32,571 nt of DNA. Source: Candidatus Eremiobacteraceae bacterium. GTDB lineage: Bacteria > Vulcanimicrobiota > Vulcanimicrobiia > Eremiobacterales > Eremiobacteraceae. Below are positions 2,364-31,793 of the stretch, piece by piece. A program made the position numbers and the translations under genes. Every line of letters begins with the position of its first letter. The first letter of the stretch is position 1. The notes under the pieces were generated by a model, which had not been told where the DNA came from, did no database searches, and saw only the letters and a program-made list of their open reading frames with translations. The stretch lies in NCBI GenBank assembly GCA_035314825.1, contig DATFYX010000088.1:1-32571 (forward strand). Direction: 5' to 3'.

Positions 2364-5300
2364 TTAGCGGGCCGCGCCTGTGCCCGAGCTGTCGAGCTCG
2401 TCCGGGTCGTTGACGGCGCGCAATGCCGCGGCGACCCGCTCGCCCTTGACCTTGATCTCCTTGGGACTGAGCCACATATAGACCACGGGGATGAGCACGA
2501 GTGTGAGCAGCAGCGAGCTGATGAGTCCGCCGATGACGACGACGCCGAGCGAGCTGCGCGATGCCACGGCCGGATCCAGTCCGAGCGCGAGCGGCAGCAT
2601 GCCGAAGATCATGGCCACGGTCGTCATCACGATCGGTCTGAAGCGCGTGCGCGCGCTTTCGCGGATCGCCGCGAGCCGGTCCATGCCGCGCTCGCGCAGT
2701 TGATTGGCGAAATCGACGAGCAGGATTCCGTTCTTGCTCACCAAGCCGATCAGCAACACCGTGCCGATCATCGAGAACGCGTTGAGCGTCTCGCGCGTGA
2801 GCGCCAAAGCGCCGATCGCACCGACGACCGCAAGGGGCACCGACGTGATGATGATGAACGGCGTCACATAGCTGTTGTACAGCGCCACCATCAAGAGGAA
2901 GACGAGCACCACGCCCAACACGATCGCCAGCGCCATGCCGTTGACCGTGTCGCTGAGGTTCTGCTGATTGCCGGCGCTGTTCGGCACGACCTTCACCGAC
3001 ACCGGGAGGCTCAAGTCTGCCACGCGCCGCTGGAACGCGCTGTCGACGTTGGACAGCGCGACGCCGGGTTCGACGTTCGCGCTCACGTGCACGACGGTCT
3101 GCCGATCCACGCGGTCGATGCTGCGCGGGCCCTCGCTGTTGTCGAGCCGCGCGAAGTCGCCGATCTTGACGATCTCTCCGGTCAGCGTGCGCAGCGGCAC
3201 GTCGAGGAGCTGGCGCTTGTCGCGCTGGTACTGCGGCGGGTAGATGACCTGCACGCCCTTGAGCCCGTCGGGTCCCTCGAATTGCGTGGCGCGGACGCCG
3301 TCGAACGCGGCGCGGATCGCCGTCGCGGCGGCGGGCAGACTGATGTTGTGGCCGCGTGCCAGGTCGCGGTCGAAGGTCACGTTCAGCTGCGGAGCGAGCG
3401 TCGCCGCCGAGCTATAGACGTTGACGGCCCCAGGCGTGTCGCGCAGCAGCTCATAGACGCGCTGCGCATACTTGGATGGATCGCCGCTCGTGTCGGTCAC
3501 AAGGTAGTCGAGCGGCTGCGAGTTGCCGCTGTGGCGATCCGTCACGGGGATGACGACAGGCGCGGCGCCGGCCGCGAGGCGCTGGGCGATGTCGCGCAGC
3601 TTCGCGACCCAATAGTCGGTCGAGTGCTTGCGCCGATCTTTGAGGTGGATATCGATCTGCGCGATCGCTCCATCCACCAGGTAGCCGCCGACCGGCGACA
3701 TCGCCGCGCCGACCATGGTCGCCTCCGAACGGACGTCGTCAATGGCGTCGACCTCGTGCTCGATCGCCAGCGCGGTGTCGCGCGTCTTGAGGAGCGGCGT
3801 GCCGCTGGGATACCCGATCTGGACGAAGATCTCGCCGTTGTCCTGTGCCGGATCGAATTCGAAGCCGACGACGCCCAGCGGGATGAGCGCCAGCGCCGCG
3901 ACGAGCGAGACAACGGCGATGGTCGCGACCGTGCCGCCATGGCTGAGCCCCCAAGGCAGCGCCACGTCCGCGTACCAAGCGCGCAGGCGTTCGAAGAAAC
4001 GGGCGAATCGCGCCGTGAAGCTGATGAATCGTCCCTTGGAGAGCAGCGCCCAATTGCCCGCCAACGCGGGCGTGACCGTGAACGAGACGACAAGCGATGC
4101 CAGCGTCGCGGTGACCACGACGAGCGCGAATTCGGAAAGGAAGCGGCCGACGATGCCGGGCAGGAACGCGATCGGCAAGAACACGACGACGTCCACGAGC
4201 GTGATGACGATCGCCGCCAGGCTGATCTCGAGACGCCCGTTGATCGCGGCGAGGAATGGCGACTCGCCCATCTCGTAATGGCGCTGGATGTTCTCGAGCA
4301 CGACGATCGAGTCGTCGACAAGGATTCCGGTGATCAGCGTCATCGCCAGCAGCGAGACGGTGTCGAGGGTGAAGTGGCCCAGCTGCATCACCATGAGCGT
4401 CGCGAACAGCGACGTCGGAATGGCGATGAGCACCGCCGTGGCGTTGCGCCACGAGCGCAAGAAGAAGACCATGACGATCGCCACGAGGATGATGCCCTCG
4501 ATGAGGGTGCGCATCACGCCGTACACCTGCTGGCGCGTGCTGCTCGATTGGTCGTTGATGACCGTGATGATGACGTCGGGGAACTGGCGCTGCAGCTCCG
4601 GCAGCATCTTGAGGACGCCGCGCGCGGTGTCGATCTCGCTCGCGCTCGTCTCTTTCTTGATGTTGAGCAGCAGCGTCGGCTTGCCGTTGACGTAGGCGTA
4701 GATGCGCTGCGGCTCGTTGCCGTCGGAGACCTTGGCGACGTCGGCGACCTTGTAGAGGCGCGGCGAGGGCACGCTCGGATTGAGCAGCGCCCGGAACTGG
4801 CTATCGGTGAGCGGCGCGGAGCCGATCGGCAGGTCGGCCACGGACGCTGCGCCCGTGATGTCGCCGCGAATGTTGATGCCGGTCTCGCGCTGGTCGCCGA
4901 AGAGGATGCCGCCGGGTGCGCGCACATTGCTGCCCGCGATGGCCCCGACCACGTCGTTGATGGCGAGCCCTGCCGACTGGAGCTTGCGCGGGTCCACTTC
5001 GACTTCGATGGACGGCGTGACGATGCCGTACGACTCGACGTTGCCGACGCCGTTGACCTGTTCGATGGCGGGGACGATCTTGTTGCTGATCAGCGATGAG
5101 AGAGCGCCGGGAGAGAGCGTGTCCGATGCGACCGAAAGCGAGACGATGTCCGACTCACCCGGATCGAAGGTCTCGATGACCGGAGCGGGCAGATCGGCGG
5201 GCAATTGCGCCTGGACCGCTTGCATGCGGCGCTGCACCTCGACCAACGCGTCGGTCTTCTTGGAGTGCAGGCTGAACTCGGTGAGCACCGTCGCGAAGCC

Positions 5301-5555
5301 CTGCTGGACGCGGGTCTGGATGTGCTCGAGGCCGGGCGCGCCGGCGAGCTGGTCTTCGATGGGGCGCACGACGCCGTCGCTCATCTCGGCAGGCGATGCG
5401 CCTGGGTAGAAGAGGATGACGACGATGTGCGGCACGTCGACGTTGGGCAGATCCTGCATGCGCAGGCTCGAGGCCGCGAGCAGGCCGCCGATCGTGATGA
5501 GCGCGACCAGGACGGCCGCCAGGGTCGGGCGCGTGACGAAGAGCTTGGTGAGCAT
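2364..5555 (-). CDS. RND efflux permease, HAE1 (AcrB-like) family
   Basis: A 1063-residue inner-membrane proton-driven pump of the hydrophobe/amphiphile efflux type. It starts MLTKLFVTRPTLAAVLVALI, typical of the first helix, and has the 'PNVDVP' and 'YPGASP' blocks that follow it. The proton relay is intact: D414-D415 in 'GILVDDSIVVLENI' and K941 in 'GLVSKNGILLVDFA', equivalent to AcrB D407/D408/K940. Two periplasmic porter/docking regions lie between the helix blocks, and the length is normal. No periplasmic adaptor (HlyD/AcrA type) or TolC-type gene is next to it, so partners must be encoded elsewhere. It sits 50 bp after the DUF4760-type gene and 18 bp before the MFS gene, in one leftward run. 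No Shine-Dalgarno is visible before the ATG. Confidence 0.95.
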   Translation of the reverse strand: MLTKLFVTRPTLAAVLVALITIGGLLAASSLRMQDLPNVDVPHIVVILFYPGASPAEMSDGVVRPIEDQLAGAPGLEHIQTRVQQGFATVLTEFSLHSKKTDALVEVQRRMQAVQAQLPADLPAPVIETFDPGESDIVSLSVASDTLSPGALSSLISNKIVPAIEQVNGVGNVESYGIVTPSIEVEVDPRKLQSAGLAINDVVGAIAGSNVRAPGGILFGDQRETGINIRGDITGAASVADLPIGSAPLTDSQFRALLNPSVPSPRLYKVADVAKVSDGNEPQRIYAYVNGKPTLLLNIKKETSASEIDTARGVLKMLPELQRQFPDVIITVINDQSSSTRQQVYGVMRTLIEGIILVAIVMVFFLRSWRNATAVLIAIPTSLFATLMVMQLGHFTLDTVSLLAMTLITGILVDDSIVVLENIQRHYEMGESPFLAAINGRLEISLAAIVITLVDVVVFLPIAFLPGIVGRFLSEFALVVVTATLASLVVSFTVTPALAGNWALLSKGRFISFTARFARFFERLRAWYADVALPWGLSHGGTVATIAVVSLVAALALIPLGVVGFEFDPAQDNGEIFVQIGYPSGTPLLKTRDTALAIEHEVDAIDDVRSEATMVGAAMSPVGGYLVDGAIAQIDIHLKDRRKHSTDYWVAKLRDIAQRLAAGAAPVVIPVTDRHSGNSQPLDYLVTDTSGDPSKYAQRVYELLRDTPGAVNVYSSAATLAPQLNVTFDRDLARGHNISLPAAATAIRAAFDGVRATQFEGPDGLKGVQVIYPPQYQRDKRQLLDVPLRTLTGEIVKIGDFARLDNSEGPRSIDRVDRQTVVHVSANVEPGVALSNVDSAFQRRVADLSLPVSVKVVPNSAGNQQNLSDTVNGMALAIVLGVVLVFLLMVALYNSYVTPFIIITSVPLAVVGAIGALALTRETLNAFSMIGTVLLIGLVSKNGILLVDFANQLRERGMDRLAAIRESARTRFRPIVMTTVAMIFGMLPLALGLDPAVASRSSLGVVVIGGLISSLLLTLVLIPVVYMWLSPKEIKVKGERVAAALRAVNDPDELDSSGTGAAR

Positions 5556-12608: not shown

Positions 12609-15600
12609 ATGTGGCTGACCCGCTTCACGCTCCGCCAACCGATCATCGCCACCCTGTTCTTCCTGGCCGTCGCGGTGTTCGGGCTGATCGGCTACGCTTC
12701 GATGGGCGAGAACATCATCCCCAACGTCTCGTTCCCGATCGTCTCGGTGACGGCCACCTATCCTGGCGCGAGCCCTGAAGAGATGGAGCGCCTCATCGTC
12801 AAGCCGATCGAGGACCAGATCCAGGGGCTGCCGCATCTGGACAAGGTCAGCGCGACCGCGCAAGAGGGCACGGCCAGCATCAACGTCCAGTTCAAGCTGG
12901 GCACGGACGTGAACTTCGCGGGCACGGACGTGCAGCACGCGGTCGACGCGGCGCGGCTGTACCTGCCGAACGACCTCGATCCTCCGCTCGTCGAGAAATT
13001 CGATCCTGGGGCGCAGCCGGTCCTCACCGAGGCGATCACGTCGACGGTGCTCTCGCCCGTCGAGCTTTCGAACGTCATCACGAACGAGATCGTGCCGGTG
13101 CTGCGCGGCGTCAAGGGCGTCGGCGCGGTCGAGGTCGGCGGCAAGTACACCCGTCAGATCACCGTTCAACCCGATCTCGCGCGCCTGCGAAGCGTCGGCC
13201 TCACGCTTTCGGACGTCAATAACTCGCTCGCCGCGGGCAACGTCAGCATGCCGGGCGGCAGATTGGACGAACCTTTCGCGGAGTCGACCGTCGGCGTGCG
13301 GGCGGACCTGACCAACGCATCGCAGATCGCACATCTACCGCTCATCAACCCGTTCGCGCTGACCAGCGGCGTTCCGGCGGGAGTCACCGGCCAGCCGCTG
13401 CGCATCGGCGACGTCGCCACCGTGGTCGACGGCTATGCCGATCATCGCGTCATCTCGACCGTGAACGGCACGACCGCGAACATCGTCAGCATATCGCGCG
13501 ACGCCACCTCCGACACGGTGAAGACGACCGAGGCCGTGCGCAAGGCCTTCGCCGACCTGCAGACGCGCTATCCGCAGATCAAGTTCGCCGAGATCGACGC
13601 GGATCTGTACTTCACGCGCGATTCGATCAACGGCGTGCTGGAGAATCTGCTCGAAGGCGTTCTGCTGACCGCGCTCGTGCTGCTGCTGTTCTTGCACGTG
13701 TGGCGCAGCGCGCTGGTCGTGATGATCGCCATTCCCGCATCGCTGTTCGCGACGTTCTTCGTGATGTGGGTGCTCGGCTTCACCGTCGACGTGCTGTCGT
13801 TGATGGGCCTGTCGCTGACGATCGGCATTTTGGTCGACGACTCGATCGTGGTCATCGAGAACATCACGCGCCATCGCGAGATGGGCCAGCCGCCCGACGA
13901 GGCGGCCATCACCGGCCGCTCGGAGATCGGCGGGGCGGCGATCGCCATCACGCTGGTCGACGTCGTCGTCTTCGCCCCGATCGCGTTCATGTCGGGCATC
14001 ATCGGGCAGTACATGCATGAGTTCGGTTTGGTCGTCGTGTGCGCGACGCTGTTCTCGCTGCTGGTGTCGTTCACGCTCACGCCGTTGCTGGCGGCCCACT
14101 GGGCCCTGGTGCGCAAACCGCGCCCGCCGTCCGGGTTCTTCAAGGGTTTCGCCGATTGGTTCGAACGCATGCGCGTGGCGTACCACGATCGCTGGCTGCC
14201 CATGGCGATGTCGCATCCGTACCTGACGTTCTTCGGCTCCTTCGGCTTGGTGCTCGGGTCGATCGTGCTCGCAGGCGTGCTGCTGTCGACCGGGATCTTG
14301 CCGGGCGAGTTCCAGCCATACACGGAGTGGGGCTACGCCAGCATCGACCTGAACTATCCGCCGGGGACGCCGATCGAGGTGACCACCGCGGGCGCGACGC
14401 GCATCGGCGCCGCGCTGGAGCAGATGAAGGGCGTCAAGAACGTCTCCGTGACGGTGGGCCGTGCGGCGAACGGCGTGACCGAGATCGTCGGCGGCAACGT
14501 CGCGCATATCTGGGCGTTCCTGTATCAAGATCAGCGCCATGAGGAGCGCGGCATCGTCGCCCGCGTGGCATCGCTCGGTTACCTCGTGCCCGGCGCGCGC
14601 CTTTCCGCCGCCGGCGCGGCGAACGCCGGCCAACCGCCGATCTTCTTCACGTTGACCGGTCCGGCCGAAGAGCTCGACGCCGCCAGCAAGAAGCTTGTCG
14701 CATTCATCACCAAGCAGCCGAACACCACCGATGTCACCGCGAGCAACGCCATCGTCGGGCCGCGCCTGGAGATCAACATCGACCGCGATCGCGCGGCGGT
14801 GCTGGGCGTGAGCCCGCAGGACGCGGCGCTGACGGCGCGTGCCGCGATCGGCGGCGTCATCTCCACGCGCGTGCGGCAACGCGAGGGGCTCATCGACGCC
14901 ATCGTGCAGCTTCCGCCGCAGACGCGCAACGATCCGGCGCAGCTGCGCACGGTCGACGTGCGCTCGTCGGCCACTGGCCAGCTCGTGCCTCTCGGCGACG
15001 TCGCCGATTTCACGAAGACGACCGAGCCGCCGTACATCGAGCGCCAGGATCGGCAGCGCGTCGTCCACGTGACTGCGAACACCGCCAACGGGGTGCCGAT
15101 CGGGCCGATCGTCGACAAGGTGAATGACGCGCTCAAGACCCCCGGCTTCCTGCCGGCCGGCGTGCACGTCTCGACCGAGGGCGATACGCAGCTCTTCGGC
15201 GATGCCATCGCCAAGATCGGGCTCGCATTGCTGACGTCATTCATCCTCATCTATATGCTGCTGGTCGTGCTGTACCGCAGCTACCTCACGCCGTTCGTCA
15301 TCATGATGAGCGTCCCGGCTGCGATCGTCGGCGTCATCGGCATCCTGGTCGTGCTCAATCTGTTCAATCTGGCGTTTCCGGACTTCCACATCCAGCTGGG
15401 CCGCTTCTATCTGCGGCCGTTCGCCGGCCAGACGCTCAACCTGTTCTCGATGCTCGGCGTCGTGATGCTCACCGGCCTGGTCGCCAAGAACGGGATCCTG
15501 CTGGTGGATTATGCGAACACGATGCGCGCCCGCGGCCTAGCGCTGCGCGACGCGATGCGCGAATCGGCGGCGATCCGCTTCCGGCCTATCGTCATGACGA

Positions 15601-15857
15601 CGGCGGCGATGATCGCGGGCATGACGCCCTTGGCATTGGGCCTGACCGAAGGCGCGGAGTTCCGCAAGTCTATCGGCACGGTCATCATCGGCGGCCTGAC
15701 CAGTTCGCTGTTCCTCACGCTGTTCGTCGTGCCCGTCGTCTATGTGGCGATCGTCGGCTTTTTCGACCGGTTGGCGGCGCGCAGGCTGGCCCGGCAACTG
15801 AAAGTCGCCAAAGAAGAGCCGGAAGACGGCGCGGGCGCAGCGCTCGACGCCGGTTGA
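12609..15857 (+). CDS. RND efflux permease, HAE1 (AcrB-like) family, first of tandem pair
   Basis: A 1082-residue AcrB-type proton-driven exporter of the inner membrane. It starts MWLTRFTLRQPIIATLFFLA. The proton relay is intact: D410-D411 in 'GILVDDSIVVIENI' and K960 in 'GLVAKNGILLVDYA'. The periplasmic porter and docking domains are complete. It closely resembles the next gene throughout, including 'HREMG' after the fourth helix and 'FRKSIGTVIIGGLTSSLF' near the end, so the two are tandem paralogues. The ATG is preceded by a repeat-rich spacer rather than a clear Shine-Dalgarno. No adaptor or outer-membrane channel gene lies nearby. The pair may form a heteromeric pump or be two homotrimers; the sequence does not tell which. 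Confidence 0.95.
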   Translation: MWLTRFTLRQPIIATLFFLAVAVFGLIGYASMGENIIPNVSFPIVSVTATYPGASPEEMERLIVKPIEDQIQGLPHLDKVSATAQEGTASINVQFKLGTDVNFAGTDVQHAVDAARLYLPNDLDPPLVEKFDPGAQPVLTEAITSTVLSPVELSNVITNEIVPVLRGVKGVGAVEVGGKYTRQITVQPDLARLRSVGLTLSDVNNSLAAGNVSMPGGRLDEPFAESTVGVRADLTNASQIAHLPLINPFALTSGVPAGVTGQPLRIGDVATVVDGYADHRVISTVNGTTANIVSISRDATSDTVKTTEAVRKAFADLQTRYPQIKFAEIDADLYFTRDSINGVLENLLEGVLLTALVLLLFLHVWRSALVVMIAIPASLFATFFVMWVLGFTVDVLSLMGLSLTIGILVDDSIVVIENITRHREMGQPPDEAAITGRSEIGGAAIAITLVDVVVFAPIAFMSGIIGQYMHEFGLVVVCATLFSLLVSFTLTPLLAAHWALVRKPRPPSGFFKGFADWFERMRVAYHDRWLPMAMSHPYLTFFGSFGLVLGSIVLAGVLLSTGILPGEFQPYTEWGYASIDLNYPPGTPIEVTTAGATRIGAALEQMKGVKNVSVTVGRAANGVTEIVGGNVAHIWAFLYQDQRHEERGIVARVASLGYLVPGARLSAAGAANAGQPPIFFTLTGPAEELDAASKKLVAFITKQPNTTDVTASNAIVGPRLEINIDRDRAAVLGVSPQDAALTARAAIGGVISTRVRQREGLIDAIVQLPPQTRNDPAQLRTVDVRSSATGQLVPLGDVADFTKTTEPPYIERQDRQRVVHVTANTANGVPIGPIVDKVNDALKTPGFLPAGVHVSTEGDTQLFGDAIAKIGLALLTSFILIYMLLVVLYRSYLTPFVIMMSVPAAIVGVIGILVVLNLFNLAFPDFHIQLGRFYLRPFAGQTLNLFSMLGVVMLTGLVAKNGILLVDYANTMRARGLALRDAMRESAAIRFRPIVMTTAAMIAGMTPLALGLTEGAEFRKSIGTVIIGGLTSSLFLTLFVVPVVYVAIVGFFDRLAARRLARQLKVAKEEPEDGAGAALDAG

Positions 15858-15894: not shown

Positions 15895-18800
15895 ATGTGG
15901 CTGACGCGTTTTGCCATCCGGCAACCGACCATTATCACGTTGTTCTTCCTAGCCGTCGCGCTGTTCGGCGTCATCGGCTTCTTCCAGATGGGCGTCAACA
16001 TCAACCCGAACGTCCAGTTCCCGGTCGTTTCGGTATATGCCGGCTACCCCGGCGCAAGCCCGCAGGAGATCGAGCGCCTCGTCATCCGGCCGATCGAGGA
16101 CCAGCTCCAAAACGTCCGCCACGTCGACAAGATCTTCGCGCGCGCTCAAGAGGGCGCCGGGACGATAATCATCCAGCTCAAGCTGGGCTCCAACGTCGAT
16201 TTCGCCGCCACCGACGTGCAGCAGGCGGTGGACGCGGCGCGCGTCAACCTGCCGGCCGATCTCGACCCGCCGATCGTCGCCAAGGAAGACCCCAACGCGC
16301 AGCCGATCCTCACCGAGTACATGACCTCGACCAAGCTCTCGCCGGTCGAGCTCTCGAACCTGGTCGAAAACGAGATCGTGCCCGCGCTCAAGGGCGTCCA
16401 CGGCGTCGGCTTCGTCAACGTCAGCGGCGAATTCATACGCGAGGTCCACGTCAACCCGGACCCGGCGCGCCTGATGATGCTCGGCGCGACCCCGCTCGAC
16501 GTCTACAACTCGGTCAATCAGGGCAACGTCAGCTTCCCGGGCGGCCGCCTCGACGAGGCGTTCCGCGAGGCCACTGTCGGCGTGCGCGCGGACATCACCG
16601 ACCCGGCGCAGATCGCGCAGCTGCCGCTTGTCGTGCCCAACGCATCGCCCAACCAGATCAAGATCGGCGATGTCGCCAAGGTCGTCGACACCTATCAGGA
16701 CCACCGGCTCGCCTCAGATGTCAACGGCCAGCCGGCGATCGTGCTCAACGTGGCGCACGACTCGGATGCGGACACGCAGCGCACCACCACCGCTATCCGT
16801 GACGAATTCAAGAAGCTGCAGATCAAGTATCCGGAGGCCCGCTTCTCCGAGCTAGAGGCCGACGAGGATTTCTTGCATGAAGCGGTGGGCGGCGTCATGC
16901 AAAACCTGTTCGAAGGTATCTTGCTGACCGCGCTGGTGTTGCTGCTGTTCCTGCACGTGATGCGCAGCGCGCTCGTGGTGATGATCGCGATTCCGACGTC
17001 GATCCTCGCGACCTTCCTCGTCATGTGGATGCTCGGATTCTCGATCGACCTTCTGTCGCTGATGGGGCTGTCATTGACGATCGGCATCTTGGTGGACGAC
17101 TCCATCGTCGTGATCGAGAACATCACGCGCCATAGGGAGATGGGCAAGCCGCCTGAAGAGGCGGCGATCGTCGGGCGCACCGAGATCGGCGGTGCGGCGA
17201 TCGCGATCACGCTCGTGGACGTCGTCGTGTTCACGCCGATCGCGTTCATGTCGGGTATCGTGGGCGAGTTCTTGCGCGAGTACGGCCTGGTGATCGTGAC
17301 CGCGACGCTGTTCTCGCTGCTCGTCTCGTTCACGCTGACGCCGCTGCTGGCCGCTCATTGGGCGCTGGTGCGCAAGCCCAAGATGACGCTGCTCTCCCAG
17401 CGCACGATCGCGCTCACGCTCGCGGTCGTGGGCGGTCTTTCGGTGCTGGCCATCGGCCTGAACCTGATCAAGGTGGTCAGCGGACCGATGCTCATCGCGC
17501 TGCTCATGCTGACCGCCAGCATCGCCGTGCTGGTGCTCGTCTACAATCATTTCAACGGCTGGTTCGACGGCTTGCGCGCCTGGTATCACGACGTGATGCT
17601 GCCCAAGGCCTTGCGCCATCCGTATATCGTCGGCTTCGGCTCGCTCGGCCTCGTGCTGGCCTCACTGGTCACGGTCGGCACGCTCGTGCCGTTCGAGTTC
17701 CAACCCAACACCGAGTACGGTGCGGCGGTCGCGAGCCTCACCTATCCCGTGGGCACGCCGATCGAGGTCACCGCCGCCGGAGCCGAGCGGATGGCCGCCG
17801 AACTGCGCAAGCGCACGGACGTCCGCGATGTCGTCGTCAACGTCGGCCAGGACTCCAACGACGTGACCGGCGGGTACGTCGCCAATCTGCAGGTCGATCT
17901 CAAGCCGGACAAGCGCCACGACGAGCATCTCGTCGTCGAGCAGATCCGCAACATGGGCTCGCTCGTTCCGGGCGCGGTGATCACCGCAGGCGGCGCGCAA
18001 AACGGCGGCGGTGCCGATCTGACCTACACGCTGCTGGGCACGCCCGAAAATCTGTACCCGGCCGCCGACAAGCTCGTGGCCTTCATCAAGAAGCTGCCCA
18101 ACACGATCGATGTGACCGCGACGAGCGAGATCGTCGGGCCGCGCCTGGAGATCGACATCGATCGCGCCAAGGCCGCGGCGCTGGGAGTCTCACCGCAAGC
18201 CGCTGCGATGACCGCGCGCGCCGCGGTCGGCGGCATCATCGCCACCAAGCTGCGCATGCCTGAGGGTCTGGTCAACGCCATCGTCCAGCTGCCGGCGGGC
18301 ATCCGCAACGATTATCGCAATCTCACCTACGTCCCGGTGCGCGCCCAAGACGGCGTCACGCTCGTGCCTTTATCGGACATCGCGACCTTCAAGTGGGTGA
18401 CGGAGCCGCCGACGCTGCGCCGCCAGGACCGCCAGCGCATCGTGCGCGTGTTCGCGAGCACGGTGGGCGGCGCGCCCATCGGGCCTATCGACAGCAAAGT
18501 GCAGGAGGTCCTCAAGCAGCCCGGCTTCTTGCCGCCCGGCGTGAACGTCCAGGCCGAAGGCGACACGCAGTTCCTCGGCGACACGATCAATAAGATCGGC
18601 ATCGCGCTGCTGACCTCGTTCGTGCTGATCTACATGCTGCTCGTGATCCTGTACCGCAATTACCTCGAGCCGCTGATCATCATGCTGAGCATTCCCGTGG
18701 CGCTGGTGGGCGCGCTGGGCATCCTCGCGTTCTGCAACATCGTCCACATGGTCGCGCCGGACGTGCGGTTCTTCGCGGGGCAGACGCTCAACATATTCTC

Positions 18801-19209
18801 GATGCTCGGCATCGTCATGCTCATGGGCTTGGTGGCCAAGAACGGCATCCTGCTGGTGGACTACGCGAATACGCTGCACGCGCGCGGCATGTCGATCATC
18901 GACGCGGTCCGGGAGTCCGCCGCCGTGCGGTTCCGTCCGATCATGATGACGACCGCTGCGATGATCATGGGCATGCTGCCGCTCGCGCTCGGCTTCACCG
19001 AAGGGGCCGAGTTCCGCAAGTCCATGGGTACGGTGATCATCGGCGGCCTGACGAGCTCGCTGCTGCTGACGCTGTTCCTGGTCCCCGTGATGTACGTGGT
19101 CGTGGTCGGCGCGGTCGAGCGCTGGCGCCAGCGCCGGCTGGCGACGCGGCTCGTGCTCGCACCGGAAGAGGACGAAGCCGTCGGAAGCACCCTGCCGATC
19201 ACACCGTAA
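15895..19209 (+). CDS. RND efflux permease, HAE1 family, second of tandem pair, with extra helices
   Basis: An 1104-residue paralogue of the preceding gene, 37 bp downstream and almost certainly in the same transcript. It starts MWLTRFAIRQPTIITLFFLA. The proton relay residues are D401-D402 ('GILVDDSIVVIENI') and K982 ('GLVAKNGILLVDYA'). It differs by an insertion at about residues 497-552, directly after the helix-6 block 'AAHWALVRKP'. The insertion contains two hydrophobic stretches (about 504-525 and 532-550), where its sister has only a short loop. Two extra helices keep the topology parity. GAGGG lies about 12 bases before the ATG, a weak but plausible ribosome site. The substrate is unknown. 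Confidence 0.95.
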   Translation: MWLTRFAIRQPTIITLFFLAVALFGVIGFFQMGVNINPNVQFPVVSVYAGYPGASPQEIERLVIRPIEDQLQNVRHVDKIFARAQEGAGTIIIQLKLGSNVDFAATDVQQAVDAARVNLPADLDPPIVAKEDPNAQPILTEYMTSTKLSPVELSNLVENEIVPALKGVHGVGFVNVSGEFIREVHVNPDPARLMMLGATPLDVYNSVNQGNVSFPGGRLDEAFREATVGVRADITDPAQIAQLPLVVPNASPNQIKIGDVAKVVDTYQDHRLASDVNGQPAIVLNVAHDSDADTQRTTTAIRDEFKKLQIKYPEARFSELEADEDFLHEAVGGVMQNLFEGILLTALVLLLFLHVMRSALVVMIAIPTSILATFLVMWMLGFSIDLLSLMGLSLTIGILVDDSIVVIENITRHREMGKPPEEAAIVGRTEIGGAAIAITLVDVVVFTPIAFMSGIVGEFLREYGLVIVTATLFSLLVSFTLTPLLAAHWALVRKPKMTLLSQRTIALTLAVVGGLSVLAIGLNLIKVVSGPMLIALLMLTASIAVLVLVYNHFNGWFDGLRAWYHDVMLPKALRHPYIVGFGSLGLVLASLVTVGTLVPFEFQPNTEYGAAVASLTYPVGTPIEVTAAGAERMAAELRKRTDVRDVVVNVGQDSNDVTGGYVANLQVDLKPDKRHDEHLVVEQIRNMGSLVPGAVITAGGAQNGGGADLTYTLLGTPENLYPAADKLVAFIKKLPNTIDVTATSEIVGPRLEIDIDRAKAAALGVSPQAAAMTARAAVGGIIATKLRMPEGLVNAIVQLPAGIRNDYRNLTYVPVRAQDGVTLVPLSDIATFKWVTEPPTLRRQDRQRIVRVFASTVGGAPIGPIDSKVQEVLKQPGFLPPGVNVQAEGDTQFLGDTINKIGIALLTSFVLIYMLLVILYRNYLEPLIIMLSIPVALVGALGILAFCNIVHMVAPDVRFFAGQTLNIFSMLGIVMLMGLVAKNGILLVDYANTLHARGMSIIDAVRESAAVRFRPIMMTTAAMIMGMLPLALGFTEGAEFRKSMGTVIIGGLTSSLLLTLFLVPVMYVVVVGAVERWRQRRLATRLVLAPEEDEAVGSTLPITP

Positions 19210-21486: not shown

Positions 21487-24400
21487 CTAGCGGCGCGGCG
21501 GGAGTTTCGGCGGCGCGAGATTCGGGCGGCCGTCGAACGACGGCATCACGACCGGATTCTTCTCCAGCGAATCGAGGATCAGCGCGAGCGCCTTGTCCAT
21601 CTGCGGATCTTTGCCGTCGCGATACTCGTGCGGCGCGATATCGACGTCATAGTCCGGATCGGTGCCGTAATTCTCCACCTTCCAGCCGACGTCGACGAAC
21701 CAGAACGAGAACTCCGGCTGCGTCGTCACGGTGCCGTCCACCAGCGGGTGCTGCGGCCAGATGCCGATCACGCCGCCCCACGTACGCTTGCCGACCAGCG
21801 GCCCGAGCTTGTAGAGCTTGAAGCAGTGGCTGAAGATGTCGCCGTCCGAGCCTGCGAACTGATTGGTCAGCCCGACCATCGGTCCGGCGACCGACTCGTC
21901 AGGATACGGCTTGGGCAAACCGTGGCGCGGGATATCGTACCCGACGCGCTTGCGCGACAGTTTCTCGAGCAGCAGAGCCGAGACGTGTCCGCCGCGATTG
22001 TAGCGCGCGTCCACGATCAAGCCGTCACGATTGAACTCCGCCAGATAGCCGCGGTGAAATTCGGCGAAACCTGCCGGCCCCATGTCGGGGATGTGCACGT
22101 AGCCGACGCGGCCGCCCGTGCGCTCGTGCACGAGCTTGCGGTTTGCCTCCACCCACTCGCGATAGCGCAGCGCGCGCTCGTCGCGCAGCGTCTTGACGAT
22201 GACGCGCCGGCGCACTCCCTCAAGATCGAGCACGGTCAGCGCGACTTCGCGGCCAGCATAGTTGAGCAACAGCGCTTCGACGGTGCGCTCGCGGCTGACC
22301 GCGTGGCCGCCCACGCCGACGATGATCTCACCCTCGCGCACGCGTAAGCCGGGCTCGGCGAGCGGTGAATCCGCATCGCGATTCCATGAATCGCCGCGCA
22401 GGATGCGCGTGATCTTGTATCCGCCGCTGCGCTCGTCGAACGATAGCTCTGCCCCGAGCAGACCGACTTTGTAGACCGGGGGCCGGCGGTAGTCGCCGAA
22501 GTACTCGTAGGCGTGCGATGTGCCCAGCTCGCCCTGCATCTCCCAGAACAAGTCGGAGAGCTCCGCGCGCGTGCGCACGCGGGGCAACAGCTTCGCGTAG
22601 CGATCGCGCACGACGTCCCAGTCGACCTGCGACATGGCCTCATCCCAGAACTGCTCGCGCTGCAGACGCCACGCCTCGTAGTACATCTGCATCCACTCGT
22701 CGCGCGGCTCGACAAGGACAGAAACGCGCCCGATGTCGATCCAACCCGAGCGTCGGCTCGACTCATCGAGCATGGGCGGCCGCGCGTCTGCATCCGCAAG
22801 CGGCTCAAGCGCGTCGATGGCTCGCAGCCGGTAGCCCGAACGGTAGACCAACGTGCGATTGTCGGCGGCCAGGCGGATCGCGCCGACTTGGCTGGCGAGC
22901 GAGCCGCAGCGCTGATCGCTGAAGTCGTACGCGAGCAGCGTGCCGTCGTCGTGCGCGTCTTCCTTTAGAAACGAATGTCCGAGACTGCCGCGCACAGGGT
23001 ACTGGGTGAACAGCGCGCGGCCCGGCGCGCCAACGATCTGGTCGTAGCGGCCCTCGTCCACGGGGAAGCCGATGACGCGGCCGCTGATGCCGTCGAAATC
23101 GATATCGATGCTCGGCGGCGGCTTGGGCGCGTCGGCAGGCGCAGCCGGCGGCTCGACCGGTCTGGACTCGGATCGCGGTGCGCTTGAGGAGCGCGCAGCG
23201 ACGTCGGTAGCGGTGCTCGGCGCATCCGGTGCGCGGCTCACAACGGCATCGTCGTGATCGTGCGGCGCGGGGGACTTGGCGGAGCCGTTGAACGCGCGCG
23301 CCTTAGGGACGAATGGCGACGCGACGTCGCTGCGCAGCGTGACCAAGAACGGGCGCATCGCGAAGGGGAAGCTCAAGTCGAATTGGAGCGCATCGTAGAC
23401 CGGGTTGAAATCACGCGTCGACAGGAAGTACAGATACTTGCCGTCGGGGTCCCATGCCGGGCAACGGTCGATGCGCAGCGGTGCGGTGACGTCGTGGACG
23501 GCGCCCGAGGCGGCCTCTGCGACGCGGATGATCGACTGGTCGCTGAACGGCGCATACGAGTAGGCGACCCAGCGTCCGTCGGGCGACCACGCCAGATCGT
23601 TGATACGCATACCTGGACTACGGTCGACCACGCGCACGTCCTTGGTCTTGAGGTCGACGGTGATCAGTTCGTGGCGGTGATTCGCCAGCGCGACCACGTC
23701 GGCAGTCGGAGACACGGCCAACTCGACGACGCGGCCAAGATCGCCGTCGCTGGCCGCGACCGGCGGCTGGCTGTCATCGGCCCAGCAGATCTGCAGATGC
23801 TCCGTGCCGCCCTCATCCGTGACGACGACGAAACGCAGGCCATCGTGCAGCCAATCCGCGTTGCGGTAGCGGACTTTGCTTCCCACGCCATGATGCGTGA
23901 CCGCCTCTTCCCACAGCGGCATCGTGAACGGCTGGCCCCGGGCGATCAGCGCGAGCGCGCGCCCGTCCGGATGCGGCGCGAAGGTCTCAAGCGTCGGCGC
24001 CGCGTCGACGAATCGGCGCGCCGTCTGCGTGGTCGTGGAGGGCGCGCTGATGTCAAGCCGTCTCGTCGTGTCGCTGGCGGAATCGTACAGATAGAGATCC
24101 GCGCCGGCGCCGTAGACGATACGCGTGCCGTCGCTTGAGGGGAAGCGGACGTAGTACTCGTCGTGATCAGTGTGCCGGCGGACATCCGAGCCGTCGGGGT
24201 TGCACGAGTACAGATTGCCGACGCCTTCGTGGTCGGAGAGGAAATAGACGCGCGTGCCGACCCACATGGGGCTGACGCAGTTGCCGTCAAGCGAGACGAG
24301 CTTCGAATACGTCCCCTTGCCGCCGGCGTCGACCCACAGTTCGCCTGCGGTCCCTCCGCGGTAGCGCTTCCAGCGAGCGGGATCGTTGTTGTTCCGCCCG

Positions 24401-24846
24401 ATCAACGTGGCGCCGCCATCGGCGACGTCGATCGACATCATGTGTCCGAGCTCGAGCGAGCGCGGACTTCCGCCGGTCCGCGCCACCGCGAAACCTTCGG
24501 CGTGGCGCAGGAACGGCGACCGGCCATCGGTCACGAAGAGGATCTCGTTTCCATCCGGCGTCCAGCCCGCGACATGGCACGTCTCGGACCCGAGATACGT
24601 CAAGCGCGCCGCGTCGCCGCCATCGGCCGCCATGACGTACACTTCAGGATGGCCCTCTTCGCGGCCGACAAAGGCGACGAAGCGCCCATCAGGTGAAAAT
24701 CGCGGTGAGGAGCACTCGCCGACGCCCGCGGTGAGGCGGCGCGCTACGCCGCCGCCAACGGGGACCGACCAAAGATCATCTTCACACACAAAGACGACGT
24801 CATCGCCAGCGATCGTCGGCTGACGGTAATATCCCGCGTTGCTCAT
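21487..24846 (-). CDS. Tricorn protease (S41 serine peptidase with propellers and PDZ)
   Basis: A 1119-residue tricorn homologue, close to the family's normal size. In order: an N-terminal six-bladed propeller with WD/TolB-like repeats (about 1-310), a second propeller (about 320-690), a helical core domain containing S777-H778 ('GTSHAYEY'), a PDZ domain (about 790-880), and the C-terminal S41 domain. That domain has nucleophile S1000 in 'AGSDGD' and E1058 in 'VENYG'. These match the known catalytic set S745, H746, S965 and E1023, with the same 58-residue S-to-E spacing. It degrades oligopeptides. A low-complexity Pro/Ala/Ser/Asp stretch (about 520-580) interrupts the second propeller. I chose the ATG at 24846; a TTG nine bases upstream is also in frame. 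It follows the esterase gene by 61 bp. Confidence 0.93.
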   Translation of the reverse strand: MSNAGYYRQPTIAGDDVVFVCEDDLWSVPVGGGVARRLTAGVGECSSPRFSPDGRFVAFVGREEGHPEVYVMAADGGDAARLTYLGSETCHVAGWTPDGNEILFVTDGRSPFLRHAEGFAVARTGGSPRSLELGHMMSIDVADGGATLIGRNNNDPARWKRYRGGTAGELWVDAGGKGTYSKLVSLDGNCVSPMWVGTRVYFLSDHEGVGNLYSCNPDGSDVRRHTDHDEYYVRFPSSDGTRIVYGAGADLYLYDSASDTTRRLDISAPSTTTQTARRFVDAAPTLETFAPHPDGRALALIARGQPFTMPLWEEAVTHHGVGSKVRYRNADWLHDGLRFVVVTDEGGTEHLQICWADDSQPPVAASDGDLGRVVELAVSPTADVVALANHRHELITVDLKTKDVRVVDRSPGMRINDLAWSPDGRWVAYSYAPFSDQSIIRVAEAASGAVHDVTAPLRIDRCPAWDPDGKYLYFLSTRDFNPVYDALQFDLSFPFAMRPFLVTLRSDVASPFVPKARAFNGSAKSPAPHDHDDAVVSRAPDAPSTATDVAARSSSAPRSESRPVEPPAAPADAPKPPPSIDIDFDGISGRVIGFPVDEGRYDQIVGAPGRALFTQYPVRGSLGHSFLKEDAHDDGTLLAYDFSDQRCGSLASQVGAIRLAADNRTLVYRSGYRLRAIDALEPLADADARPPMLDESSRRSGWIDIGRVSVLVEPRDEWMQMYYEAWRLQREQFWDEAMSQVDWDVVRDRYAKLLPRVRTRAELSDLFWEMQGELGTSHAYEYFGDYRRPPVYKVGLLGAELSFDERSGGYKITRILRGDSWNRDADSPLAEPGLRVREGEIIVGVGGHAVSRERTVEALLLNYAGREVALTVLDLEGVRRRVIVKTLRDERALRYREWVEANRKLVHERTGGRVGYVHIPDMGPAGFAEFHRGYLAEFNRDGLIVDARYNRGGHVSALLLEKLSRKRVGYDIPRHGLPKPYPDESVAGPMVGLTNQFAGSDGDIFSHCFKLYKLGPLVGKRTWGGVIGIWPQHPLVDGTVTTQPEFSFWFVDVGWKVENYGTDPDYDVDIAPHEYRDGKDPQMDKALALILDSLEKNPVVMPSFDGRPNLAPPKLPPRR

Positions 24847-24907
24847 GAGCCACAAGAATTGGCCCCAGCGGGGACCCGAGCCTTTTCTGAGAGCCTACTA
24901 AGACGCC

Positions 24908-25918
24908 TTAATTGGGATGCGGCTTCATGGTCGGTCCAGGTGGGATGACCTCCTGGATCGTGCCCGAGGAGGCGACCCCGGCGAGCATGTCGCGCCATGC
25001 CTTGCTCGCCATCGGAGCGACTGAGGCTAATGAGTGGGTGCCGCCCGGCTGCTCGTAATAGGTCACCAAGGCGCCGTGCGAGCTCAGCCAGGCGGCGAGC
25101 TGGCGCAGGTACGCGGACGTGATGCTCCCATCCTCGGAGCCCCCGACGAGGTAGACCGGCTTGCCGCGCACGTGCTGTGCGACCGCGTCGCTATCGGTCT
25201 GTGCGACGGCGCCTTCGATCACGAGCAACGACGACCAACGGTCGGGAGCGGCCGCGAGCGCCTTGAACGCCGCGAACCCGCCAAGCGAGTTGCCCGCGAG
25301 GTAGACGCGTCGCCGATCGACGCGCAGCGACGTCTCGATCGCTCCTAGTGTCTGGTACAGATCGGCGATGGTGGCGTCGGCGAGCATGTCGTCGCCGCCG
25401 GCATACGGCGCAATCACCACGCTGCCGGTGGCGTCGGCCAGCGAGCGCACCAGCGGCGATGCGATGACGTCGGCTTCGCTCTGACCTTTGCCATGCAGGT
25501 AGATGATCAGCGTGGCCGGTTTGTCACCAGCTGTGGCGGGCACGTAGAGCGCCAGCGGGTACGCTAGCTTCTTGACGCCGATCGCCGGCACGAGCGCCGC
25601 TGAGGCGCCGTGGATCGTGTCGAGCGCTGGGTAGGTCTGCTGCGCGAGTTGATCGACGAGCGCCCTGTCGAGCTGTGCGAGCTGGAGCGTCGCCTCGGGG
25701 TCATCTGAGGTTTGCAGCTGCGCGAGATGCGCTGCGAGCCGCGCATGCAGGACGGCGGTCAATCCGCTGAGCCGATCGATCGCAGCTGCGTTGGCGGCGA
25801 GCTCGCGCTGAGCGCCCTCGAGCAGCGCACGGGCTTGGCTGAGCTGGTCCGAGGGCGCTGGCGCAAGCGCGACATTGAAGGTTATCGCGATCGCGGCCAA
25901 CACGCTGAACATTTTCAT
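24908..25918 (-). CDS. Secreted alpha/beta hydrolase (esterase-like)
   Basis: A 336-residue protein with an N-terminal signal peptide (MKMFSVLAAIAITFNVALA). A helical stretch (about 25-95), rich in Ala, Gln and Leu and possibly coiled coil, precedes the hydrolase domain. The hydrolase shows 'LIIYLHGKGQ' (oxyanion region), 'LAGNSLGGFAAF' with nucleophile S211, 'VGGSEDGSI' carrying a likely catalytic Asp, and H295 in 'GGTHSLAS'. This is the layout of polyhydroxybutyrate-depolymerase-like and feruloyl-type esterases. AAGGAAG lies about 6 bases before the ATG at 25918. The frame remains open upstream, but that part lacks signal-peptide character. It is probably co-transcribed with tricorn and diverges from the selenoprotein candidate across 60 bp. 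Confidence 0.83.
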   Translation of the reverse strand: MKMFSVLAAIAITFNVALAPAPSDQLSQARALLEGAQRELAANAAAIDRLSGLTAVLHARLAAHLAQLQTSDDPEATLQLAQLDRALVDQLAQQTYPALDTIHGASAALVPAIGVKKLAYPLALYVPATAGDKPATLIIYLHGKGQSEADVIASPLVRSLADATGSVVIAPYAGGDDMLADATIADLYQTLGAIETSLRVDRRRVYLAGNSLGGFAAFKALAAAPDRWSSLLVIEGAVAQTDSDAVAQHVRGKPVYLVGGSEDGSITSAYLRQLAAWLSSHGALVTYYEQPGGTHSLASVAPMASKAWRDMLAGVASSGTIQEVIPPGPTMKPHPN

Positions 25919-25978: not shown

Positions 25979-26977
25979 ATGAAGGTACGCGTGCCGATCA
26001 CCGGCTTCGTCCTCACATGCGTGCTCGCGCTTGGGGGACCAGGCGTGCGAGCGCAAGCGCAGGATATGCCGCAAGACGGCGCAGCCGCACCTTCAGTGCC
26101 GGTGCTGCAGTCGGTCATTGATGGCGGCTTCGAGCCGTTCGATCTCAAGACGGCATCGACAGGCACGACCATCGTGTTGTATTTCTTTCCCCAGGCCTTC
26201 ACCGAAGGCTGAACGATCGAGGCCAAGGCCTACGCCGCCAGGCTGGCGGACTTCAAGAAGCTCGGCGCCACGGTGGTCGGCATCTCCTACGATTCGCTCG
26301 ATGTGCTCAAGAAGTTCCAAGCGCAAGAACAAGCGCCGCAGCGCTTCGTGTCTGACACCAAAGGCGTTGCGGTGACTGCGTTCGGCGTGTCGATGACCGA
26401 CCAGGGCCAGGTCTACGCGAAGCGCGCGACCTTCATCATCCGCGACGGCAAGGTCTTGCACACCGTCTTCGACTGGAGCCCGCTCGGCAACGTCAGCAAG
26501 ACGCTTGACTGGCTCACCGCCCATCCGGCGGTCGCCAGCACCAGGCCGCCGCTTGTCGAGAGCGCTGCTCCGGCCTTCACGCTGCCGCTCATCGCCAACG
26601 GCAGTGGATCGTTCTCGCTCGCGAAGCAGCGCGGCCACGGCGTGTACATCAATTTCTTCGCGTCGTGGTGCGCGCCGTGCGTGCAAGAGGCGGCGACTAT
26701 CGGCGCGATCACGCCGGAGTTCAGCTCGCGCGGCGTGCGCATCGTCGGCATCGCGGTGCTCGATAACCCGTCCGGCGCGATGGGTTTCGTCCATCGGTAT
26801 GGTTTGAAATACCCGATCGCGTACGACAAGTCGGGGAGCGTCGGAGCCGAATACCGGCTCACACAGCTGCCGCTTCATGTCTTCGTCGACTCGAACGGCG
26901 TCGTGCGCCAATATGTCGCAGGCGGTCCGATTCCGGCCGCCGAGCTGCGCGCAGGGCTCTCCTCGATCGCTCGATAA
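25979..26977 (+). CDS. Candidate selenoprotein: peroxiredoxin-like domain fused to TlpA-like thioredoxin domain
   Basis: Read straight through, this frame encodes 332 residues with one in-frame TGA at codon 78 (26210-26212). A signal peptide (MKVRVPITGFVLTCVLALGG, cleavage near 'VRAQA') directs it outside the cytoplasm. Residues about 50-185 are an AhpC/TSA-Bcp-type peroxiredoxin. 'VLYFFPQAFTEG' is followed by the TGA, then 'TIEAKAYAARL', exactly where Bcp proteins have 'PGCTKEA', so the TGA replaces the peroxidatic cysteine. Residues about 190-332 are a TlpA/ResA-like domain with 'FFASWCAPC' (C231, C234). Outside the signal peptide those two are the only cysteines, and no resolving cysteine follows the TGA. 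Selenocysteine is favoured over a nonsense mutation because the frame and both domains stay intact and a SECIS-like hairpin follows. selA, selB, selC and selD are not in this window. Confidence 0.82.
26235..26249 (+). promoter_or_regulatory. Putative bacterial SECIS hairpin
   Basis: Downstream of the in-frame TGA the sequence CCGCC-AGGCT-GGCGG can form a perfect GC stem; adding the A-T pair gives CCGCCA/TGGCGG. The five-base loop begins AGG and lies 28-32 bases after the TGA. Published rules for bacterial SECIS elements ask for a loop 16-37 bases after the UGA and a G in the first two loop positions, and both are met. The E. coli fdhF loop (AGGUCU) is similar. GC-rich coding DNA forms chance hairpins easily, so this is supportive rather than decisive. 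Confidence 0.6.
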
Positions 26978-29452: not shown

Positions 29453-29529
29453 GGCGCTGTAGCTCAGTTGGTTAGAGCGCCTGCCTGTCACGCAGGAGGT
29501 CGTCGGTTCGAGCCCGATCAGCGTCGCCA
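29453..29529 (+). tRNA. tRNA-Asp (anticodon GTC)
   Basis: A complete 77-base cloverleaf with encoded CCA. The acceptor strand GGCGCTG pairs with CAGCGTC with one G-T pair, and the discriminator base is G73. The D-loop carries AGCTCAGTTGGTTAGAGC. The anticodon stem CCTGC/GCAGG encloses CTGTCAC, giving anticodon GTC. The T-loop is GGTTCGAGCCC. Its 3' portion is the core of an integration site, and a duplicate lies at 31127-31172. Confidence 0.97.
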
Positions 29530-31280: not shown

Positions 31281-31793
31281 TTACGGTCGGGTCTGTGGGC
31301 TGGCAAACAACCGATCTAGCTTCTCAGCGACGTCTCGTTGCATCGACGGCAACACATGGCTATAGATATCTAGCGTCACGGCGATTTTAGAATGCCCTAG
31401 GCGCTCCTGGACGATCTTAGGGTGGATGCCCTGACCAAGCATCAACGTTGCAGCAGTGTGCCTGAGGTCATGAAAACGGATGACCGGCAGGCCTGCCCGT
31501 TTGAGCAGCGGTCTAAACGAACGCCGCACAACGTTAGACGCACGTAGCGGTCCGCCGCGAGCGTCGCAAAAAACCCACATAGAAGGTGACTGATTCTTGG
31601 CCAACATTCGCTTCCGATGGTCGCGCAACGCCCTAACTACTGAGGCTGGTAGGTCGATGCGCCGCCGCCCCTTCGTACTCTTGGGTTCTGCGATATCGAA
31701 CTTGCCTGCCATCTCTACCAGCGTCCGGTTCACAGATAAAGACCCGTTGTCCAGGTCGATATCGGACCAGCGCAACAGGACCCCAGTACGTAT
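31281..31793 (-). pseudogene. Tyrosine recombinase/integrase, 5'-truncated
   Basis: This frame encodes the C-terminal catalytic part of a phage-type integrase. Visible elements are 'LRWSDIDLDNGSLSVNRTL', the beta-hairpin lysine region 'EPKSTKGRRRIDLP', the box 'HDLRHTAATLML', 'LGHSKIAVTLDIYSHV' with the catalytic tyrosine, and a normal C-terminal tail. The N-terminal DNA-binding half is missing. Upstream the frame reads I-R-T-G-V-L-L-R-W and then hits a TAG at 31796-31794. Intact relatives have 'TGxRxGELLxLRW' there, so the first catalytic arginine appears lost. A TTG at 31775 would give 164 residues, but the enzyme should be inactive. It lies next to the att copy, where an element's integrase belongs. 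Confidence 0.82.

Follow-up and report, generated by a model that had tools for sequence, protein, structure and literature searches.

The window analysed here, a stretch of 32,571 nucleotides that represents contig 88 of a draft MAG, carries a gene in which a PrxQ-like peroxiredoxin (Prx) with an in-frame TGA codon at its peroxidatic position is joined to a ResA/TlpA-like thioredoxin-fold domain. We read this TGA with high confidence as selenocysteine (Sec), on the basis of the conservation of the codon and its surroundings among relatives and of the Sec machinery encoded in the genome. The explanation that best accounts for the data as a whole, and which we consider reasonably likely, is that the product is an exported Sec peroxidase that would be reduced by its fused CAPC domain, with electrons supplied by CcdA/DsbD. 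The source genome (2.55 Mb, 97% complete, 0.3% contamination) has Candidatus Eremiobacterota CP_BE_RX_3 as its nearest named relative. The features of the gene are as follows.

25979-26977, plus strand: complete fused gene for the selenoprotein, 332 aa including Sec78, from ATG to TAA (orthologues)
25979-26059, plus strand: probable signal peptide MKVRVPITGFVLTCVLALGGPGVRAQA, read by eye, with cleavage near residue 27
26105-26455, plus strand: peroxiredoxin domain, PF00578 AhpC-TSA, PrxQ/BCP-like (Pfam, AlphaFold model, structural matches)
26210-26212, plus strand: TGA codon, read as selenocysteine, at the peroxidatic position, P-x3-T-x2-U (column conservation)
26235-26249, plus strand: bSECIS-like hairpin CCGCCA-GGC-UGGCGG (pair and synonymous-site conservation)
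26528-26548, plus strand: fusion junction and short linker AVASTRP (stop codon and second signal peptide at this place in relatives)
26555-26929, plus strand: ResA/TlpA-like thioredoxin-fold domain, PF08534 Redoxin (Pfam; PDB 4nmu/1st9 ResA)
26669-26680, plus strand: CAPC redox motif, residues 231-234 (sequence)

The TGA at codon 78 (context FFPQAFTEG-TGA-TIEA) is the single internal stop of the frame, as a preliminary description of this DNA had stated. The frame does remain open thereafter, but for 254 sense codons before the TAA rather than the 255 given in that description. Both domains were recognized by Pfam with scores far above the cut-offs: AhpC-TSA (PF00578) at residues 43-159 with 154.8 bits, and Redoxin (PF08534) at residues 193-317 with 137.4 bits, the latter corresponding to the TlpA-like CAPC domain that had been proposed to lie in the same frame. 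The P-x3-T-x2-C/U motif is present together with a PF00578 match above the gathering cut-off, as expected of a peroxiredoxin, and the C-terminal domain is of the Redoxin/TlpA type with the WCxPC motif of ResA/TlpA thioredoxin-like proteins. This domain matches the PDB structures of ResA (4nmu and 1st9) and scores 84-88 bits against the NCBIfam ResA model, which is under the 170-bit cut-off of that model. In the AlphaFold model, the N-terminal domain adopts a peroxiredoxin fold with high confidence (pLDDT about 90-98), residue 78 lies close to the N-terminal end of the first long helix (residues 76-87), and the best structural matches include Bcp4, BCP and PrxQ. Only Prx rows were used as input for this model, because MAFFT, when given both domains together, aligned sequences of one domain with the other domain, and the C-terminal half was therefore poorly modelled. 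The leader, as judged by eye, has a basic start, a hydrophobic core and VRA/AQA, and relatives likewise have hydrophobic leaders. In the predicted mature protein, the cysteines of the CAPC motif are the only ones besides Sec78; one more is present within the signal peptide.

An orthologue search, performed first in 61 relatives and then in 149 genomes of the phylum, revealed the residues that occupy column 78. In the family of the window's gene (f1), this column is TGA in 10 of the 11 copies and TGC in the remaining one, that of genome G011 (L029:1831-1833). G039, which belongs to another family of the class, also has TGA at this position, and Cys was found in all 19 orthologues of family f2 examined. 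In total, TGA is present in 11 genomes including the window and Cys in 20; that is, the column contains Cys or TGA throughout, the pattern by which the preliminary description had proposed to judge its reading. In the phylogenetic tree, the ten TGA copies of f1 and the Cys copy of G011 group together with 99/97 support, and G039 is on a long branch whose placement is unsure. Because G011 sits inside the TGA group, a reversion from Sec to Cys is suggested, and the gene may represent a natural revertant; its hairpin sequence has been lost. Relative to genus mate G001, dN/dS is about 0.11 over the Prx portion and 0.28 over the TlpA portion. These values, which also average over the time before the fusion, indicate purifying selection on the frame on both sides of the TGA.

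The Sec and Cys forms also differ at a second position. A second Cys at CP+40, which is close to the position of the resolving Cys of Xanthomonas-type PrxQ, is present in all of the 19 Cys orthologues of f2 and in none of the 11 Sec forms, and it has not been regained in G011. There is no Cys at CP+5 in the 11 Sec forms or in G011 either. The Sec form therefore has neither of the arrangements that define a 2-Cys PrxQ, in which the second Cys is located at CP+5 or in helix 3 (about CP+36 to +40).

A potential partner is encoded nearby. In seven relatives (G001, G003, G006, G007, G008, G010 and G012), the stop codon of the Prx gene is directly followed by a separate TlpA/ResA-like gene, which is in another frame and has its own hydrophobic leader. 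No TlpA-like gene follows the Prx gene in genus g3 (G004, G011 and G013), and the pairing of the two genes is therefore not obligatory. Since the Sec forms do not contain a second Cys, the evident candidate for the reductant is the CxxC domain, whether adjacent or fused. It is plausible that Sec, together with an external CxxC reductant, took the place of a Cys/Cys pair, and that this reductant, the product of the adjacent gene, became fused in the window.

By analogy with known systems, the following redox mechanism appears plausible. SelB and tRNA-Sec, directed by the downstream hairpin, would insert selenocysteine at UGA codon 78, and Sec78 would attack H2O2 or organic peroxides outside the cytoplasmic membrane and be converted into a selenenic acid. 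The oxidized Sec78 would then be reduced by the CAPC motif of the same chain or of a second copy, by way of a selenenyl-sulfide and subsequently a CAPC disulfide, to which CcdA/DsbD would return electrons from the cytoplasm. Two DsbD_TM proteins are encoded in the genome. In the relatives, the same two partners would function as separate, adjacent exported proteins.

The most serious competitor of this mechanism is that the Sec-Prx and the fusion are real, but that the CAPC domain serves another client, such as cytochrome c maturation in the manner of ResA, and that a different thiol system reduces the Prx. The resemblance of the C-terminal domain to ResA would fit such a role, as would the Sec-Prx of genus g3 without an adjacent TlpA gene and the several further TlpA-like genes of the genome. 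However, the conservation of the adjacency in seven relatives, the fusion in the window and the loss of the internal resolving Cys are more readily explained by a dedicated reductant, and we regard a different client as a possible but rather unlikely alternative. Reduction by the fused CAPC domain is thus retained as the preferred reading. Its most specific version, a self-contained extracytoplasmic selenoperoxidase that has Sec without a resolving Cys, depends on a dedicated partner of the TlpA type, which is encoded by the adjacent gene and fused in one species, and is fed by CcdA/DsbD, is in our estimate an evenly balanced proposition.

The origin of the fusion can be traced by comparison with G001, the genus mate and nearest relative, whose Prx domain is 80% identical and which has two genes. 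In the DNA alignment, the window differs from G001 by the absence of one 86-nt block that holds the Prx stop codon and the TlpA signal peptide, a loss that brings the two frames together. Judging from the relatives sampled, the two adjacent genes appear to be the ancestral state, and the comparison supports a recent fusion private to this genome. No other fused copy was found among 80 contig loci or seen among the matches in the phylum, and the fusion is therefore known to date from a single MAG. No plasmid record covering 80% of the query was found. The occurrence of the fusion in a single genome, together with the stop codon, second signal peptide and 86-nt difference of G001, would also be expected if the Sec-Prx were real but an assembly or binning artefact had merged two genes that are in truth separate neighbours, like those of the genus mate. 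Such an artefact is unlikely, however, given that the junction is clean, that both domains are intact and that the frame is kept even though 86 nt is not a multiple of 3; an assembly slip restores the frame in only about one of three cases, and the exact loss of the stop codon and signal peptide is not expected from it. We consider that the fusion is probably real. Two genes upstream of the fused gene belong to the same conserved neighbourhood.

24908-25918, minus strand: esterase-like gene, divergently transcribed (syntenic neighbour in G001, G006 and G012)
21487-24855, minus strand: tricorn-like/PDZ protease gene, named from sequence (syntenic and close to the Prx gene in G001, G004, G006, G008, G011, G012 and G013)

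The order protease, esterase, Prx and TlpA is common to G001, G006 and G012, and parts of it are found in others.

The genome encodes the machinery for Sec insertion, and all of selA, selB, selC and selD, which the preliminary description had proposed to search for, are present. A search of the genome identified selA at C66:21956-23287 (521.8 bits), an adjoining selB match (305 bits) and, elsewhere in the genome, a selD match (379.8 bits). The tRNA-Sec (76.4 bits) was also detected by ARAGORN with anticodon tca, and is located a few kb downstream of selA-selB on the same contig. G003, which carries the TGA gene, yielded no selA match and no tRNA-Sec above the cut-off, perhaps due to its fragmented assembly (370 contigs). 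By eye, in the region L021:6957-13828, selA-selB are followed by genes for an FAD monooxygenase, MsrA, a GST-like protein and an exported MsrA and then by the tRNA-Sec; this neighbourhood may be a redox-repair/selenium cluster.

Further evidence was obtained from the sequence immediately downstream of the TGA. In sliding windows, synonymous codon identity reaches 0.84 at codons +4 to +10, compared with about 0.45 elsewhere; among copies with the same amino acid, codons +8, +9, +10 and +12 do not vary at all. In most copies, these frozen codons make up CCGCCA-GGY-UGGCGG, a hairpin whose apical loop contains G; in the window, the first loop G is nucleotide 32 when counted from the U of UGA. This is the arrangement of a SECIS, namely a hairpin just downstream of the codon with a G in a small apical loop. 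The six stem pairs are kept in 98.5% of cells, and because the stem is nearly invariant, covariation is limited to one compensatory pair (C-G to U-A in G039). The predicted folding energy does not exceed that of shuffled sequences (z -0.09) and is unexceptional for such a GC-rich sequence. RNA stability was therefore rejected as proof of a SECIS, and conservation was used as the evidence instead. A paralogous Sec-PrxQ set gave a weaker, mixed covariation result, because two members do not have a hairpin at the same position.

These findings bear directly on the remaining readings of the TGA. Gene prediction with translation table 11 splits the frame into exactly two pieces, as would be the case if the TGA were a true stop and the gene were either broken or composed of a short Prx fragment and a C-terminal protein with its own start codon (GTG at 26273). 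This is very improbable in view of the recurrence of this TGA in 11 genomes, the purifying selection acting on both of its flanks, the Cys of all other orthologues, the presence of the sel genes and the frozen synonymous sites downstream of the codon. A sequencing error at the TGA was also rejected; the same TGA recurs in independently assembled genomes, and an error is therefore very unlikely. Genome-wide reassignment of UGA (e.g. to Trp) or nonspecific readthrough, for which only the open frame speaks, can for practical purposes be regarded as refuted: RF2 is encoded in the genome and TGA ends several window genes and selB, so that UGA is a normal stop here, most Prx genes of relatives also end in TGA, and the residue aligned with the codon is Cys, never Trp. 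The interpretation of the gene as encoding a selenocysteine peroxiredoxin, as put forward in the preliminary description, is thus supported.

Peroxiredoxins that contain Sec in a TxxU motif form an established family of bacterial selenoproteins (PMC13188914), and 43 Sec-peroxiredoxin genes were found in the Sargasso Sea set (PMC1088965), in agreement with the earlier remark that such proteins are known. The window protein shares with this family (PF00578, TxxU; e.g. PrxU, NF040737) the Sec at the peroxidatic position in P-x3-T-x2-U, but it is predicted to be exported, has no resolving Cys and is fused to a CxxC domain, and it scores only 47.9 bits against the NF040737 model (cut-off, 270). The closest subfamily in fold and sequence is PrxQ/BCP (Xanthomonas PrxQ, Sulfolobus Bcp4), typical members of which contain both CP and a resolving Cys, unlike the Sec form described here. 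In work cited in PMC4460558, Cho et al. reportedly described, in mBio in 2012, a cell-envelope peroxiredoxin of Caulobacter that is reduced by TlpA and ScsB. The expected logic is alike, with a membrane transporter, a TlpA-like carrier and a periplasmic peroxiredoxin; however, the Caulobacter route is Cys-based and uses separate proteins, whereas here Sec would be used and the carrier and peroxidase are parts of a single chain. Hybrid-Prx5 of Haemophilus influenzae (1nm3), a structural match over 239 columns, is likewise a peroxiredoxin fused to its own thioredoxin-fold reductant. It consists of Prx5 and glutaredoxin, is cytoplasmic and uses Cys, in contrast to the PrxQ-like and ResA/TlpA-like domains, predicted export and Sec of the window protein. 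In the Global Ocean Sampling data, Sec-Prx fusions include Prx with a PP2C-type phosphatase and Prx-like 2 and 3 joined to other domains, including one with CxxC, and none is described as a fusion of Prx with a TlpA/ResA domain (PMC2398784).

In the literature searched, which was incomplete, we did not find any account of a Sec-PrxQ that is exported and lacks a resolving Cys, of its TlpA operon or of a Sec-Prx/TlpA fusion, consistent with the earlier suggestion that the architecture is not a standard one, and no paper naming both Eremiobacterota and selenocysteine. The new elements are the predicted exported, resolving-Cys-free Sec form, its operon and this fusion; the Sec-Prx family and domain fusions of Sec-Prx were already known. 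Such genes are easily missed, because standard annotation splits them into two fragments. The gene places selenocysteine in a predicted exported antioxidant enzyme of an uncultured phylum. Forms with Cys and a resolving Cys, forms with Sec and no resolving Cys, the putative Sec-to-Cys revertant, and separate versus fused genes provide natural comparison sets that can test the benefit of Sec to a peroxiredoxin and the co-evolution of its reductant supply.

Two other peroxiredoxin frames with TGA were observed in the genome. One is PrxQ/BCP-like (FYPKDHTSG-U-TNEASQF; L180:1501-1875, corresponding to G000:C1:11380-11754), with its TGA at L180:1549-1551; homologous TGA genes are present in G004, G005, G009, G011, G012 and G023, and a hairpin whose loop reads GGUCU or GGUCC follows five of these homologous genes. 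The other frame is Prx-like, has TGA as its peroxidatic codon (FYVLDHTLG-U-YIQLAAVRGD; L181, G000:C67:29353-29733, minus strand) and likely encodes another selenoprotein.

Elsewhere in the window, three genes named by eye as RND-type efflux transporters are located within 17 kb (2364-5555 on the minus strand, and 12609-15857 and 15895-19209 on the plus strand). A tRNA-Asp gene is present at 29453-29529, and a frame resembling the C-terminal part of a tyrosine recombinase lies 2 kb downstream of it (31281-31775); this region is possibly the edge of an integrated element.
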